From Thermotoga caldifontis AZM44c09 (GTDB lineage: Bacteria > Thermotogota > Thermotogae > Thermotogales > DSM-5069): 64,000 nucleotides of DNA. Positions 34,557-40,950 of the stretch are shown piece after piece. How positions within the stretch are numbered: the stretch's first letter is position 1; every line of letters starts with the position of its first letter. The notes below the pieces were generated by a model. It was not told the DNA's origin, did no database searches, and saw nothing but the letters and a program-made list of their open reading frames with translations. The stretch lies in assembly GCF_000828655.1 (NCBI RefSeq), contig NZ_AP014509.1, forward strand, positions 744,001 through 808,000, in the 5' to 3' direction. The position numbers were made by a program, and so were the translations under genes.

Positions 34557-35216
34557 TCAGTTTTCGTTGATCTTTCCCGCTGCCCTGAAACTGTAATAGC
34601 CGTTTCTGCCAATTATGACGTGATCCACAAGCTTTATACCCAGGATGCGTCCGGCTTCAACCATGCTCAGCGTGATCGTCTCATCGTCTCTGCTGGGAGA
34701 AGGATCACCGGATGGATGGTTGTGCACGAGGATCAGGGCGTTGGCGTTCGCGCGCACAGCGAGTCGAAAAACGTCTCTCGGGTGCAGGAGCGTCTGGTTG
34801 TTCGTACCGACGGTTACATCGCTGTAAGTGATCAGGGAGAGTTTACTATCGAGGAGCAAAACGCGCGCGATTTCCTTGTCATACAATCTCATGTCGTGGC
34901 AGAACTCGAATATGGCCGTGGGGCTGGTCAAAACCGTCCGTGGTTTTGCGAGCTCCGTGTAGAGGCGCTTTCCAAGTTCCAATGCAGCCTTGACACTCGC
35001 CGCTTTCGCCAATCCCACACCGTCTATGGCAGCGATTTCTTCGAGCGACGCGTTCGACAGGGCTCTCAACGAACCATCGAACCTGTGGATGATTTCCTGT
35101 GCCAGTTCGTACACGCTCTTGCCCTTTTTGCCAGTTCTCAGAATTATGGCGAGAAGCTCTTCGATCGACAGACTTTCGGGGCCTGCGACTTTCATTCTCT
35201 CACGTGGTTTCAACAC
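34557..35216 (-). CDS. radC: RadC-family JAB/MPN domain protein
   Basis: 219 aa from GTG 35216; the open frame upstream lies inside maf and is not used. The start MLKPRERMKVAGPESLSIEELLAIILRTG is typical. There is a helix-hairpin-helix (AIDGVGLAKAASVKAALELG) and an intact JAMM zinc motif HNHPSGDPSPSRDD near residues 163-176. Despite its name, the role in DNA repair is uncertain. It overlaps maf by 17 nt. Confidence 0.93.
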   Translation of the reverse strand: MLKPRERMKVAGPESLSIEELLAIILRTGKKGKSVYELAQEIIHRFDGSLRALSNASLEEIAAIDGVGLAKAASVKAALELGKRLYTELAKPRTVLTSPTAIFEFCHDMRLYDKEIARVLLLDSKLSLITYSDVTVGTNNQTLLHPRDVFRLAVRANANALILVHNHPSGDPSPSRDDETITLSMVEAGRILGIKLVDHVIIGRNGYYSFRAAGKINEN

Positions 35217-35769
35217 GCCAGATCCCCCTCGAATACAGATAGTTCCATACCTCGTAAACTGGTAGGCCGATGACGACGTACGGATCACCGACCACGCGTT
35301 CAACGAAGACCGCTCCGATGTCCTGAAGCCCGTAAGAACCAGCTTTGTCCAGTGAGTATCTCGAGGAGTAGAAAAAAACGAAATCCGAGGGAACATCCCT
35401 GAACTTGACACTCGCGGACTTCAGGTTCAGCCACGTCTCATGTTGACTCACTATTGCCACTGCAGTGTGTACTCGATGCCACCGACCCATGAGCTTGAAG
35501 AGCTGTTCACGCGCTTCGAGTTCGTTCGATGGCTTGCCCAGTATTTCACCGTCCAGGTCGACCACCGTGTCGGCGGCGATAACCAGGGCGTCCCTGTTGC
35601 TTTCAAAAACGCTCACGGCTTTGAGCAGCGCGAGCTTTTCGGCTGTTTCCTGAGGCGTAGAGAAGTGTGGCTCGTCAACCTTCGGTGCGATGATTTCGAA
35701 TCTTTCTAGTATCATGCTCATTATCTGCGCTCTCCTGGGCGACGCTGAAGCCAAAATTATCCTTCGCAC
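35200..35769 (-). CDS. maf: Maf-family nucleoside triphosphate pyrophosphatase
   Basis: 189 aa; hydrolyses non-canonical or excess dTTP/UTP-type nucleotides. Signature LASASPRRAQIMS at the N-terminus, ADTVVDLDGEILGKP, and the tail ADTVV..YGLQDIGAVFVERVVGDPY-type block. GTG 35769 is chosen because MRRIILASASPRR is the family start. It lies 95 nt inside the upstream transporter gene. Confidence 0.94.
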   Translation of the reverse strand: MRRIILASASPRRAQIMSMILERFEIIAPKVDEPHFSTPQETAEKLALLKAVSVFESNRDALVIAADTVVDLDGEILGKPSNELEAREQLFKLMGRWHRVHTAVAIVSQHETWLNLKSASVKFRDVPSDFVFFYSSRYSLDKAGSYGLQDIGAVFVERVVGDPYVVIGLPVYEVWNYLYSRGIWRVETT

Positions 35770-36241
35770 GTCTCACCACTCTCTCTGCCAGATAAGCGTT
35801 GAGGATCGCTCCGGGTACACCGAGAAAAAGCATTTGCGGGAGTATGAGCAGGAAAGACCAGCTTCTTATGCTCATGGCGCCAACGAGCGCCTGTGCCACG
35901 TTGTTGGCAACACTTCCGAGAACGCTGATGCCGACCAGCCCGAATATAGAACTCCTGTAAGCGATGTATTCACCCGTTGCGGCTGCTACGGAACCTGCCA
36001 CGGACATGAGAGACACGATGCTGAAGAGCCTTCCTGTGATTAGAGAACCAACGACGCTCTTCAGAAGGCTCACAGCTAAAACTGTCTTGAAGTCATACAG
36101 CATCACCGCGATCAGAACGACCAGATTCGATAAACCCCAGCGACCGTAAGGCAACGGGAACGGCACGAACGTTTCAAGAAAATAGATGACACTTCCAAGA
36201 GAGGCGAGAGAAGAAATTAGAGCCAGCCTTCGAACGTTCAC
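35675..36241 (-). CDS. Gx transporter family / heptaprenyl diphosphate synthase component I-like membrane protein
   Basis: 188 aa, five or so hydrophobic segments. The motif FPLPYGRWGLSNLVVLIAVMLYDFKT (in two adjoining parts) and LKSVVGSLITGRLFS are typical of this family, usually annotated Gx transporter or HepS component I. It overlaps the NusG-II gene by 4 nt and maf by 95 nt. In many anaerobes the family sits beside NusG-II and ApbE genes, as here; a role in flavin or quinone-related redox modules is inferred only. Confidence 0.8.
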   Translation of the reverse strand: MNVRRLALISSLASLGSVIYFLETFVPFPLPYGRWGLSNLVVLIAVMLYDFKTVLAVSLLKSVVGSLITGRLFSIVSLMSVAGSVAAATGEYIAYRSSIFGLVGISVLGSVANNVAQALVGAMSIRSWSFLLILPQMLFLGVPGAILNAYLAERVVRRAKDNFGFSVAQESADNEHDTRKIRNHRTEG

Positions 36242-36606
36242 CAGGTCATCACGTCCACACCCTCGTTGGAAACCTTTCTGAACTTTATGAGCACTCTGTT
36301 GGGTACGCAGATGATCACACCGCCAGGTCCCACACGCCCTGTCTTCTCACAGATTTTCAGAGGGCAGTCGGCGTTTTCAACGTGGACCTTTTGACCGTCG
36401 AAGACCACTTTCATCAAGTATTTGTCGCCATCGTGGAGTTCGTACGATCCGGCCACTCTGATCTGCATGGACAGTTTTCCACCGACGAAGACTTCAACGG
36501 TTTGCCCTTTCTGAGATTTCCCCCAGTAAAGGCCGAGAAAAACTACCATTAGTGAGATGATGAGAAAAAGATCGCGTTTCTTGAAGAGCTCATCGCGACT
36601 GTTCAT
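36238..36606 (-). CDS. NusG domain II-containing extracytoplasmic protein
   Basis: 122 aa. A single N-terminal membrane anchor (LFLIISLMVVFLGLYWG) is followed by a small beta domain with the two-cysteine motif CPLKICEKTG and ICVPNRVLI characteristic of this family. It is unrelated in role to transcription factor NusG. It lies between ApbE (17-nt overlap) and the Gx transporter gene (4-nt overlap). Confidence 0.88.
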   Translation of the reverse strand: MNSRDELFKKRDLFLIISLMVVFLGLYWGKSQKGQTVEVFVGGKLSMQIRVAGSYELHDGDKYLMKVVFDGQKVHVENADCPLKICEKTGRVGPGGVIICVPNRVLIKFRKVSNEGVDVMTW

Positions 36607-37642
36607 AGACGACCATCGCTGGTGAGCGTCTTATCGAACCATCGTCCGTGACCATGAGAACGTTTCCTCCAAACTTTGGGAACTCGAGTACCACGTATTC
36701 CCAGTCCGTTCCCATGACGAACCCGGCCGTTGAAAGGGCATCCGCCGTTACCGCGTTGTCCGCAACCACGGTGACCGAGATGGCCCCTCTGGCGGGAAAA
36801 CCAGTCTTGGGATCGAGTATGTGATGGTAACGAACCCCTCCGACTTCGAAGTATCTTTCGTAATCGCCTGAAGTTGCAACCGCGCCCGAGGTCAAATACA
36901 GATACGCTATGGCTGCGTCACTCTGCCTGGGATTCCTCACACCCACTACCCAGGGCCTGGACCCAAACTTCGGACCGAGTATCCTGATATCCCCACCGGC
37001 TTCGACGAAGCCCGTGCAGTCCTTATCGACTTCTTTTGCCACCTGGTACGCCCGGTCCAGGGCATAACCTTTCGCTATTCCACCAAGGTCCAGCTTTGCT
37101 CCATTCAGGAGTCGCACCCTTCTTCTTTGAAAATCCAGTTCTAATTTGTCTGTTCCAATGTGCTTGAGAGCTTCTTCTATCTCTTTGAGCGAAGGAACTC
37201 TGCTTGGAGGTGCTTCCGCTATCTTATCGAAACCCCAGAGGCGGATCAGTTCACCTAAGGTTGGATCGAAAGCGCCGTTGGTGAGCTTGCTGAAGCGGAC
37301 GGCTGCATCGAGTAGGGCGAAAGTTTCCTCATCGATATCGACCCAATCGTTCGAGGCGTTGATCCTGCTGATCACGCTCGCCGGATCGTTGGGATTGAAC
37401 TTCTTGTAAATTCTATCGAGTTCGTTGAATATGACCTGGGCCAGAACTTTGGAACCTTTTCTGGAAGAGACCACGATTCTGCAGTAGGTCCCGAGCGTGA
37501 AACCGGTCAGTTCGTAATAGTTCGGGGGCGCTTTCAGAAAAGACGTTAAAAAAATGATCAGCACAACGGAGACGAGAGAAACGGCAACCAACAGGATCTT
37601 CCTATCGAGCTTCAAAAGATTCTTACTATCTTTCTGCCGCAC
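36590..37642 (-). CDS. apbE: FAD:protein FMN transferase (ApbE)
   Basis: 350 aa. An N-terminal membrane anchor (ILLVAVSLVSVVLIIFLTSF) is followed by the ApbE fold: YELTGFTLGTYCRI, GAFDPTLGELIRLWGF, LDLGGIAKGYALD, SGDYERYFEVGG and YHHILDPKTGFPA. It attaches FMN covalently to threonine of exported or membrane flavoproteins such as Rnf/Nqr subunits. No acceptor protein is encoded nearby. GTG 37642 has GGAGGGAAGG upstream and overlaps amrS by 31 nt. Confidence 0.94.
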   Translation of the reverse strand: MRQKDSKNLLKLDRKILLVAVSLVSVVLIIFLTSFLKAPPNYYELTGFTLGTYCRIVVSSRKGSKVLAQVIFNELDRIYKKFNPNDPASVISRINASNDWVDIDEETFALLDAAVRFSKLTNGAFDPTLGELIRLWGFDKIAEAPPSRVPSLKEIEEALKHIGTDKLELDFQRRRVRLLNGAKLDLGGIAKGYALDRAYQVAKEVDKDCTGFVEAGGDIRILGPKFGSRPWVVGVRNPRQSDAAIAYLYLTSGAVATSGDYERYFEVGGVRYHHILDPKTGFPARGAISVTVVADNAVTADALSTAGFVMGTDWEYVVLEFPKFGGNVLMVTDDGSIRRSPAMVVYEQSR

Positions 37643-38601
37643 TTGCTACACCTTCCCTCCGCGTCGAGTCCAACAATCTGCACCTCGTAACCTCTACGCG
37701 CGATCGATAACGTTCCGCAGTCCGGGCACACCGTTTTCTCGTATTCGGGATCCCAGAGGTTCCCGATGTAGACGAAGTCGAGATACTTCCTGGCGAGGTT
37801 GTAGGCTTCGATCAAGAACGCTGGCGACGTTGCCGGAGCGTTGTACTTGTAAGATGGATAGTATCTGGAAAGATGCAAAGGTATCGACCTGTCGAGACTT
37901 GCTATCCAGCGGAACTCTTCTTCGAGAAGTTTCAGATCGTCGTTCAGCTGTGGCACGATCAACGTCGTGATCTCGACGTGCACGTTGGCTTTAACGCACG
38001 TCTCTATCGTGTTCAGCACCGTTTTGAGGTCTCCGCCAAGTCTCGCGTAGGTACGTTCGTCGAAGGCTTTGAGATCGATGTTCATAGCGTGAATAGATTG
38101 AAGCAGAAGTTTCAAAGGTTCTTTTTCGATCATACCGTTCGTTACGAGCACGTTGTAGAGACCCTCTTTCGTCGCAACCCTCGACGTGTCGAGGACGAAC
38201 TCGTACCAGATGAACGGCTCGTTGTACGTGTACGCTATACCACGAGATCCCCTGCTCTGCGCGATCGAGACCAGCTGTTGCGGCGAGACGCGCTTCGTGG
38301 GTGCAACCTGCTGCGAGATCTCCCAGTTCTGGCAAAAGAAACACTTCATGTTGCAACCGAACGTTCCCACAGAGAGTATGTACTCCGAGGGATTGAAATG
38401 GAACAGCGGTTTTTTCTCGATCGGATCCAGAGCGATGGAGGTTATTTCGCCGTAATTCAGCGTCTCCATCACTCCACTCTGGTTGCGCCGGGCAAGGCAA
38501 AGACCAACCTGTCCATCTTCGAGCACGCAGTGATGGGGGCAGAGTTCGCATTTGATTCTGTTTTCATCCAAGGTGGAAAAGTAAAGTGCCATCCTCTGCA
38601 C
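37612..38601 (-). CDS. amrS: AmmeMemoRadiSam system radical SAM enzyme
   Basis: 329 aa. A cysteine-rich N-terminus (CELCPHHC) precedes the radical SAM cluster motif C83-C87-C90 (GCNMKCFFCQNW). The end has a rubredoxin-like pair of CXXC motifs (CPDCG and CSKCG). It belongs to the family paired with AMMECR1 and Memo proteins; the reaction is unknown. It directly follows the AMMECR1 gene (11-nt gap). No Memo homologue is present in the window. Confidence 0.93.
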   Translation of the reverse strand: MQRMALYFSTLDENRIKCELCPHHCVLEDGQVGLCLARRNQSGVMETLNYGEITSIALDPIEKKPLFHFNPSEYILSVGTFGCNMKCFFCQNWEISQQVAPTKRVSPQQLVSIAQSRGSRGIAYTYNEPFIWYEFVLDTSRVATKEGLYNVLVTNGMIEKEPLKLLLQSIHAMNIDLKAFDERTYARLGGDLKTVLNTIETCVKANVHVEITTLIVPQLNDDLKLLEEEFRWIASLDRSIPLHLSRYYPSYKYNAPATSPAFLIEAYNLARKYLDFVYIGNLWDPEYEKTVCPDCGTLSIARRGYEVQIVGLDAEGRCSKCGRKIVRIF

Positions 38602-38612
38602 GAAATCACCTC

Positions 38613-39137
38613 TCAGTGGTACCGCTCGACTGTGAACCTGTACACGTCAAAACGTTCCCGCTCTGAAATTCCGGCCTTTCTGAGTGCTATTCGGAGCTGT
38701 TCTTCAACGCTGTCCACACCGGGCAAATCGGGCAGTAACAACCCTCTCCTGTAACCACTGACGACGATCACGCCGTACCTTTTCGGATCGAGTTGACTGG
38801 TGTCTGCCACTTTCTCAGGCTCGCTGAGTATGTCCACTGTGACTTCGATATCGTCCAGTTCCTCTGGCGTCACCGGTTCAAATCGAGGATCCTGTGTCGC
38901 GGCGGCGATCGCGTTGTCTCTGATCTCGAGCGCCAGGTTCGATCTGGTTGGCATGAAAGTCCCGATGCATCCTCTCAAAGATCCATCCAGGAGATGCAGG
39001 CTGACGAAAGCCCCCGCCCTGCGATTCAACAATTCTTCCGGGGCGCCGTCTTTGATCGGATCAACCATCCTTCCATCCAGAATGTAGCTTTCGATACTCT
39101 TGATCGCCCACTTCACGAACGGATGATGACCCTTCAT
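38613..39137 (-). CDS. amrA: AmmeMemoRadiSam system protein A (AMMECR1 domain)
   Basis: 174 aa; signature LRGCIGT at residues 54-60 and AAATQDPRFEPVTPEEL, IEVTVDIL. The biochemical role is unknown. ATG 39137 has AAGGTGAAGGA just upstream, located inside the preceding gene, which it overlaps by 77 nt. It is cotranscribed with amrS. Confidence 0.93.
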   Translation of the reverse strand: MKGHHPFVKWAIKSIESYILDGRMVDPIKDGAPEELLNRRAGAFVSLHLLDGSLRGCIGTFMPTRSNLALEIRDNAIAAATQDPRFEPVTPEELDDIEVTVDILSEPEKVADTSQLDPKRYGVIVVSGYRRGLLLPDLPGVDSVEEQLRIALRKAGISERERFDVYRFTVERYH

Positions 39138-39816
39138 CTTCCTTCACCTTCTTCCAGAGTTCGTAAACCTTTGAGATCGGAACCGGTTCTTCATCAAAAC
39201 AGAAAACGTGGTGGACCTTCTTCCATTTCGTGAAAGCTTCGCATAAATTCCGCGCCAGCGTTTGCAGGTGCTGTCTTTCTCGTTCGTCGATATCCAAGCA
39301 GTTGAGAAATTCTCTGAGATCGATCCTGCTTTCTTTCACCTGACTGCCTGGAACCAACAAAGAACAACCTTCATCTTCGTCGATCGATTCGAGGAACGAT
39401 GGAAGCTTCGATAGTAAGTTTCTCAAACCGATAGGCAACAGAACCTTCACCGTGTTGCAGTGTCTCATCTCCTTTGACAGGGTCAAAAGGTGAGAGAGAA
39501 ATCTTGCGACTGTTGAAGTTCCCATGGCCTTTCCTGCCAGACTCGAGTCTGCCGAAGGAACGTAAGCCACCTGAAAGCCCGTCGAACAAACACCGTAAGA
39601 GAGTTGCAAAAGCCCATCGTTCCCGATGAATAAAACCTTTCTTGCACGAAGCTTGTGGAGAACATCGATGGTTTCTTTCAGAGTTTGACGCGAAGAAATG
39701 TTTTGTGAGAAAACGGCACGTTCGTCGATCTCTGCCAGGTTCAATCCCTCACGTTTCAGTCCTTCGAGCAACACTTCAACGCCTGGGCAGACCCCATGAA
39801 CGAGAACTGCGAGCAT
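39061..39816 (-). CDS. Phosphofructokinase-like protein of unknown function
   Basis: 251 aa, shorter than PFK (~320 aa). The N-terminal half follows the PFK plan: LVHGVCPGVEVLLEGLKREG, the substrate glycine loop as VLFIGNDGLLQLSYGV (G65-L69), and PSADSSLAGKAMGTSTVARF (residues 87-106) where PFK has PKTIDND..GTD.TiGfdTA. The first catalytic Asp is kept, but the following Asn and Asp are Ser. The C-terminal half is divergent, with scattered cysteines. It probably heads the AMMECR1-AmrS-ApbE run. It may be a non-catalytic or repurposed PFK relative; the assignment is by pattern only. Confidence 0.55.
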   Translation of the reverse strand: MLAVLVHGVCPGVEVLLEGLKREGLNLAEIDERAVFSQNISSRQTLKETIDVLHKLRARKVLFIGNDGLLQLSYGVCSTGFQVAYVPSADSSLAGKAMGTSTVARFLSHLLTLSKEMRHCNTVKVLLPIGLRNLLSKLPSFLESIDEDEGCSLLVPGSQVKESRIDLREFLNCLDIDERERQHLQTLARNLCEAFTKWKKVHHVFCFDEEPVPISKVYELWKKVKEDEGSSSVREVGDQEYRKLHSGWKDG

Positions 39817-39835: not shown

Positions 39836-39841
39836 ATTATA
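39836..39841 (-). promoter_or_regulatory. Probable -10 box of the PFK-like/amr operon
   Basis: Minus-strand TATAAT lies 20 nt before the PFK-like start codon, at the head of a 20-kb run of same-strand genes. No convincing -35 hexamer is visible at 16-18 nt. Confidence 0.42.
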
Positions 39842-40000: not shown

Positions 40001-40025
40001 AAAAGGCGGGATAAACCCGCCTTTT
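40001..40025 (-). terminator. Terminator downstream of fabD (symmetrical, may work both ways)
   Basis: A ten-base inverted repeat (AAAAGGCGGG / CCCGCCTTTT) with a 5-nt loop lies 17 nt after the fabD stop. The minus-strand side continues TTTTGTTTTTG, a good U-tract. It closes the fab operon and isolates the PFK-like operon downstream. Confidence 0.82.
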
Positions 40026-40041
40026 CTACCAAGATCGCAGT

Positions 40042-40950
40042 TCACACAACTTGTGGGATCGGTTTCTTCTCTTCTGCCAGAATCTCTGAAAAATGCTGTG
40101 AGGCCTCTGGTTTCATTTTCTTGATGAGATTCGTCAGAACCTTCTGAGGTCCGACTTCCACGAAGCCGTGAACACCCATAGACACCATCCTGTCTACCGA
40201 CTGGTACCATTTCACCGGACCGCTTATCTGCGCGAGGATGTTTTCTTTGATTTCTTCAGGGTCCGTCGTTTCCTTAGCAGTGCTGTTCATGACGATCGGC
40301 CATCTTGGCCTCCGGAACTTGACTCCCCTGAGTTCCTTCGCCATCTTTTCGCGCGCGGATTCGAGCAACGGTGTATGGAACGGCCCACTCACTTTCAGCT
40401 CTATCACCCGTTTCGCAACAGCTCTCAACTTCTCTGATGCCTTTCTCACCGCTTCCATTGAACCGCTGATCACGACCTGGTCCGGTGCGTTGTAGTTCGC
40501 GATCCACACCCCTTCTATGTCCGCGATGGTTTCCTCGACTTTCGATGCGTCCGCTCCGATCACGGCGGCCATACCGCCCAGTCCCGGTGGAACGGCCTGC
40601 GAGATGTACTCGCCTCTCTTTCTCACGAGATACAGACCGAGCTCGAAGTCATAAACGTCCGCGGCTGCGAGCGCGGTGTACTCACCAAGGCTGTGACCTG
40701 CCACAACGTTGGGCACGACACCGTTTCGGACCAGCTCGTCGAAGGCTATGTAACTTGCAAGATATATCGCCGGTTGAGCGTTCTCCGTTATTTTGAGGAT
40801 TTCCTCTTCCGCATTCATCAGCTGGTACATGTCTATGCCCAGCACTTCCTTCGCCCGTTCGAAGAAGTATCGAGCCCTTGGATAAGACATGAAATCTCTT
40901 CCCATGCCGGAATATTGTGAGCCCTGACCGGGAAAGACAAAGGCTAACAC
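40042..40950 (-). CDS. fabD: Malonyl CoA-acyl carrier protein transacylase
   Basis: Loads malonyl groups onto ACP; 302 aa. The start LAFVFPGQGSQYSGMGRDF and the nucleophile elbow GHSLGEY with Ser87 are intact, and SGPFHTPLL holds the catalytic His. It is the last gene of fabF-fabZ-fabK-fabD and overlaps fabK by 7 nt. Confidence 0.97.
   Translation of the reverse strand: MLAFVFPGQGSQYSGMGRDFMSYPRARYFFERAKEVLGIDMYQLMNAEEEILKITENAQPAIYLASYIAFDELVRNGVVPNVVAGHSLGEYTALAAADVYDFELGLYLVRKRGEYISQAVPPGLGGMAAVIGADASKVEETIADIEGVWIANYNAPDQVVISGSMEAVRKASEKLRAVAKRVIELKVSGPFHTPLLESAREKMAKELRGVKFRRPRWPIVMNSTAKETTDPEEIKENILAQISGPVKWYQSVDRMVSMGVHGFVEVGPQKVLTNLIKKMKPEASQHFSEILAEEKKPIPQVV

Follow-up and report, generated by a model that had tools for sequence, protein, structure and literature searches.

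The first gene of the amrA operon in Thermotoga caldifontis AZM44c09 (positions 39061..39816, minus strand, of the window, by which we mean the whole 64,000-nucleotide stretch of DNA analyzed here) encodes a degenerate relative of 6-phosphofructokinase (PFK), here called pseudo-PFK, that purifying selection still preserves as a protein. The explanation that we favor, with a probability of roughly 70%, is that pseudo-PFK is a degenerate ortholog of the PFK found in this operon elsewhere in the Thermotogota, and a selected pseudoenzyme that lacks phosphotransfer and was probably kept for binding a ligand or a partner. Its ancestor would have been an intact mixed-type 6-phosphofructokinase of the kind that heads the amrA operon in six more Thermotogota families. 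Within the Pseudothermotoga family the enzyme would have become shorter and changed rapidly, with the loss, seen in alignment, of its catalytic triad and sugar-phosphate site, and glycolysis could be left to other PFK genes.

The pseudo-PFK gene and its operon

The pseudo-PFK gene has an ATG start, encodes 251 residues, and lies between its 5′ neighbor fabD (40042-40950) and amrA (38613..39137, minus strand), which encodes AMMECR1, protein A of the AmmeMemoRadiSam system (TIGR04335, 139 bits), and shares 77 nt with the pseudo-PFK frame. Next come amrS (37612..38601, minus strand), the radical SAM enzyme of the same system (TIGR04337, 308 bits), and the FMN transferase gene apbE (36590..37642, minus strand), recognized by profile searches, with both amr genes scoring above the cut-offs of their models. 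Open reading frames and profile searches further identified a NusG domain II protein whose gene overlaps apbE (36238..36606, minus strand) and a membrane protein resembling heptaprenyl diphosphate synthase component I (35675..36241, minus strand). From pseudo-PFK to this last gene, all lie on one strand with overlaps or tight spacing throughout. The operon seems to extend into Maf-like (35200-35769) and RadC-like (34557-35411) genes, identified by eye, whose ends overlap. Although amrA and amrS stand directly 3′ of it in one operon, pseudo-PFK is not among the three proteins that give the AmmeMemoRadiSam system its name (AMMECR1, Memo and radical SAM), and it was found only in one bacterial family. 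The Memo gene is single-copy in the source genome, 57 kb from amrA (G000:C1:724648-725457), and is present in 44 of the 45 genomes of the order.

A -10 box, TATAAT, read from the upstream sequences, stands about 20 nt 5′ of the start codon (39836..39841, minus strand), and is kept in 8/10 family genomes in which the surrounding sequence differs; no strong -35 was found with it, and the promoter scan did not report this box. An intrinsic terminator after fabD (40001..40025, minus strand; a 10-bp stem with 6 GC and a T tail) parts the operon from the fab genes. The conserved -10 box and this terminator together place pseudo-PFK at the head of the operon, in agreement with the first-pass annotation, which had a promoter just 5′ of the gene starting the amr operon.

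The amrA Shine-Dalgarno sequence AGAAGGTGA (39144..39152, minus strand) falls inside the pseudo-PFK frame, where it encodes a conserved K-K-V. Both the ribosome-binding site and the start of amrA lie within that frame in all five genomes of the source genus (overlap 47-77 nt), and in a second genus, genus-4, the overlap of the copies with amrA is minimal or absent (-4 to +4 nt). Since the K-K-V codons (39138-39154) write the amrA Shine-Dalgarno sequence, the conservation of those residues may have a non-protein cause.

Taken alone, the 251-residue protein has no PFK match in Pfam, NCBIfam or PDB-sequence searches, which returned chance matches only, and the resemblance to PFK read from its sequence was recovered through its relatives. 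Whole-genome searches revealed copies in all genomes of the source genus, 41-77% identical, and longer copies in a neighboring genus. One of the latter, P0001, passes the curated PF00365 cut-off that the window protein does not reach (74 bits vs 30.9), matching over its N-terminal half at 1.6e-20, and a copy from the source genus (G005) matches the same model at 8e-4. A profile built from ten copies matches PFK structures from Bacillus and E. coli (7e-8 to 2e-6) along residues 1-136, the kind of profile comparison with PFK that had been proposed as a check. Profile-to-profile comparison links the copies of the source genus to those of genus-4 at 2e-13 over 217 columns, and the latter to the intact operon PFKs at 3.7e-18 over 159 columns; the direct comparison of source-genus copies with intact PFKs gives 1.7e-6 over 75 columns. 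This chain of profiles and the ten-copy match establish a homologous N-terminal PFK domain. No PFK similarity was detected in the C-terminal half of the copies by profile comparison with the intact PFKs, so the C-terminus may have been replaced rather than have diverged; correspondences of GHLLRGGTPTAFDR with KIDGILSASRPLKKD noted there by eye were not significant and were dropped. An AlphaFold model was unusable (pLDDT 44), having been built on a two-sequence alignment whose partner was one locus from a genome-contig search, from Pseudothermotoga sp. isolate RSWP20. With 251 residues against 319-340, the protein is 68-89 residues shorter than intact PFKs, close to the deficit of about 70 given originally.

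Active-site residues lost and retained

Three remnants of PFK motifs can be placed in the protein. Codons 8-12 (39781..39795, minus strand) read G-V-C-P-G and are what is left of the donor loop GGGDCPG, the G, C, P and G being invariant in 9/10 aligned copies. Codons 65-68 (39613..39624, minus strand), G-N-D-G, correspond by alignment to the Mg/phosphate motif GGDDT/GGDGS, and codons 87-90 (39547..39558, minus strand), P-S-A-D, to P-K-T-I-D-N-D, with one acid of the DND remaining. The GxCPG loop, G-(N/S)-(D/E) and P-x-A-D with its single acid are retained by nine of the ten aligned copies. The pairings made by the first-pass annotation, GNDGL with GGDGT/GGDDT and P-S-A-D-S-S with P-K-T-I-D-N-D, align as claimed. 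Its further statement that two of the three DND residues are Ser is accurate for the window copy and does not extend to the others, which read D-A-S, D-S-G, D-F-G or are free of acid at this place.

The catalytic DND (D127/D129) of PxTIDND is thus absent from the window protein, and the triad is intact in no copy. In the nucleotide/Mg site the window protein keeps GxCPG and G-N-D and has lost R72 and one loop glycine; a single copy still has an Arg72 equivalent. The fructose-6-phosphate residues R162, R171, E222, R243, H249 and R252 (E. coli numbering) are mostly lost or unalignable, and most of D125, D127, R160, R169, E219, R264, H270 and R273, which vary little or not at all among the intact enzymes, are gone from the degenerate copies. 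Conservation among the copies is concentrated on the donor side, with a mean of 0.78 at donor-site columns vs 0.49 elsewhere, and when the donor-site mask was slid round the alignment, 0.78 was reached at one of 202 positions, the true one.

Between genera of the one family the copies share only about 20% identity, and two of them have gone further than the rest. The most degenerate (G002, L070 2256-2993; 245 aa) has lost the donor motifs, with neither CPG nor the PSAD acid left, and that of G001 has no remaining DND acid, so that one ligand-binding role cannot be common to all copies. The G002 frame is still open, with TATAAT in front, and in the tree this copy sits on an exceedingly long branch.

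Distribution and descent across the Thermotogota

We surveyed 61 amrA regions of Thermotogota (60 fetched and that of the window) and found that in 34 of them the gene immediately 5′ of amrA is of PFK type. An intact PFK of ~340 aa accounts for 24 of these, distributed over six families (f3 in part, f5, f7, f8, f9 and f11); the remaining 10 all belong to the Pseudothermotoga group, family f1, which includes the source organism, and all are degenerate copies. Each of the 11 f1 genomes has such a copy, of 243-297 aa, adjoining amrA in 10/10 cases where amrA was found; the eleventh, in G001, stands behind fabD on a contig that stops before amrA. Within the 61-region survey, no PFK gene occupies this place in families f2 and f10 and in two f3 genera, and in f8 PFK is followed by amrA with amrS not adjacent. 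The suggested tie of the gene to amrA/amrS is thereby borne out by its homologs in other genomes, and also by the intact PFK at the same place in the six other families.

The intact operon PFKs are ordinary enzymes by their sequences. Two that were examined have TIGR02483 (PFK_mixed) as best model, at 437 and 414 bits for a cut-off of 430.55, and score well above the NF002872 PFK cut-off, and the DND and the fructose-6-phosphate residues show little or no variation across the eleven that were aligned. Five f3 genomes yielded no PF00365 gene besides the operon PFK, which is hence presumably the glycolytic enzyme there. Pseudo-PFK shares with this group the place directly before amrA, similarity in the N-domain and the CPG of the first loop, whereas the operon PFKs have 340 aa, GGDDT, PKTIDND and all acceptor residues, and score 414-437 bits where the window protein scores none.

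A tree built from the part of the N-terminal region that can be aligned puts the degenerate copies together with the operon PFKs on the same side of a branch (support 97/93). Moving the copies to the ATP-PFK clade or to that of a third type of PFK lowers the log-likelihood by ~6.6 and is rejected in neither case (AU p 0.13 and 0.12), which makes either parent a less favored one on the sequences at hand. This branch and the identical gene position make descent from the operon PFK the economical reading, and because the branches are long they argue for it rather than prove it. Pseudo-PFK would accordingly be a degenerate ortholog of the ordinary operon PFK, still at the old operon position, and its link to the amr genes would then be a matter of inherited place no less than of a new partnership.

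The source genome holds three other PFK genes within ~13 kb (G000:C1:1927290-1940962): a PfkA-type ATP-PFK (TIGR02482), a Thermotogales PPi-PFK (NF041103) and the third PFK. Their N-terminal domains are homologous to that of pseudo-PFK; they differ in being intact and in showing no linkage to amr genes (they map to 1.93-1.94 Mb), and they can cover glycolysis in this organism. In the third PFK (336 aa) the first loop is unusual, with GNDCPGLN in place of GGDxPGMN, and a simple pattern search found no standard GGDGS/GGDDT in it.

Selection and the possible function of pseudo-PFK

With the amrA overlap left out, dN/dS in the source genus is 0.35 (95% CI 0.22-0.57) for G000-G004 and 0.14 (0.09-0.23) for G003-G006, and genus-4 gives 0.16 (0.09-0.24) and 0.22 (0.13-0.32); the corresponding values for amrA, amrS and fabD from these pairs are 0.03-0.07 where measurable. 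The frame is open in all 11 genomes, and in a neutral simulation ~0.1% of runs with a 220-codon frame were still open at the observed dS of 0.4. The protein has therefore been retained, several times more loosely than its neighbors. A dead pseudogene, with a broken frame or a dN/dS near 1, is ruled out by the open frames and by values of 0.14-0.35 whose upper confidence limits are ≤0.57.

The product retains mainly the glycine and proline elements of the donor-phosphate side of PFK, and these, together with purifying selection, make binding without phosphotransfer the most likely role: pseudo-PFK may bind a nucleotide, pyrophosphate or a partner. The pseudoenzyme alternative raised at the outset is thus well supported by the loss of the triad and acceptor site and by dN/dS below 1. 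In the source genus, where the amrA ribosome-binding site lies inside its frame, translation of pseudo-PFK runs into amrA, and the two proteins would be made together; AmrA/AmrS or a catalytic PFK may be what pseudo-PFK modulates. A more specific proposal seems to us rather unlikely: the PFK-AMMECR1-AmrS-ApbE operon would owe its existence to a genuine functional tie of the PFK step to the unexplained AMMECR1/radical-SAM pathway, and in Pseudothermotoga the PFK would have been pared down to what this tie requires, a nucleotide/PPi sensor regulating AmrA/AmrS.

Pseudo-PFK could also be a non-catalytic subunit that assembles with an active PFK of the genome and regulates it, a proposal that overlaps our preferred explanation and names the partner. 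Regulatory subunits of this sort exist in plant PPi-PFK (PFP alpha) and yeast PFK, and like pseudo-PFK as proposed here they are PFK-fold proteins without catalysis of their own; they are full-length and paired with a catalytic paralog, a pairing that for pseudo-PFK is hypothetical. Its PFK descent, its recognizable N-domain signature and the three active-looking PFKs of the same genome would suit such a subunit. However, its operon is shared with amrA, the other PFK genes are ~1.1 Mb away, and the C-terminal PFK domain is unrecognizable, so the subunit interfaces may be lost, and we consider this assembly improbable.

It is likewise doubtful that the gene is a vestige whose protein is irrelevant and whose frame is retained through translational coupling to amrA. 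Such a vestige would account for the 47-77 nt overlap with a Shine-Dalgarno sequence inside the frame in 5/5 genomes of the source genus, for C-terminal blocks being the most conserved between G000 and G004 (96% and 91%), and for an overall dN well above that of the neighbors. Against it, the first 220 codons, which lie clear of the overlap, have a dN/dS well under 1; the genus-4 copies, with their -4 to +4 nt, are equally constrained (0.16-0.22); and conservation is concentrated at PFK donor-site columns. The other option of the first-pass annotation, a kinase acting on a new and smaller substrate and tied to the AMMECR1/radical-SAM pathway, is very unlikely: purifying selection and the GxCPG, G-(N/S)-(D/E) and single DND acid of 9/10 aligned copies could be those of an enzyme, but the Arg72 equivalent is gone in all copies but one, the triad is down to at most one acid and even that acid varies among copies, the C-terminal acceptor residues are lost or unrecognizable, some of the motifs that persist elsewhere are missing from G002 and G001, and identity of only ~20% between genera of one family is unlike a conserved enzyme.

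A literature search that covered few subscription papers turned up no paper describing a link between PFK and AMMECR1 genes, no comparable PFK pseudoenzyme and no relevant work on PFK in Pseudothermotoga. We know of no agreed reaction for AMMECR1, a protein conserved up to humans, and the adjoining PFK and AMMECR1 genes of most Thermotogota families offer a concrete and testable handle on it. At this locus, its place in the operon unchanged, a core glycolytic enzyme can also be followed in a natural series to a conserved protein that is no longer an enzyme. If the link should be one of inherited position only, it would still be a clean case of the decay of an enzyme into a pseudoenzyme.
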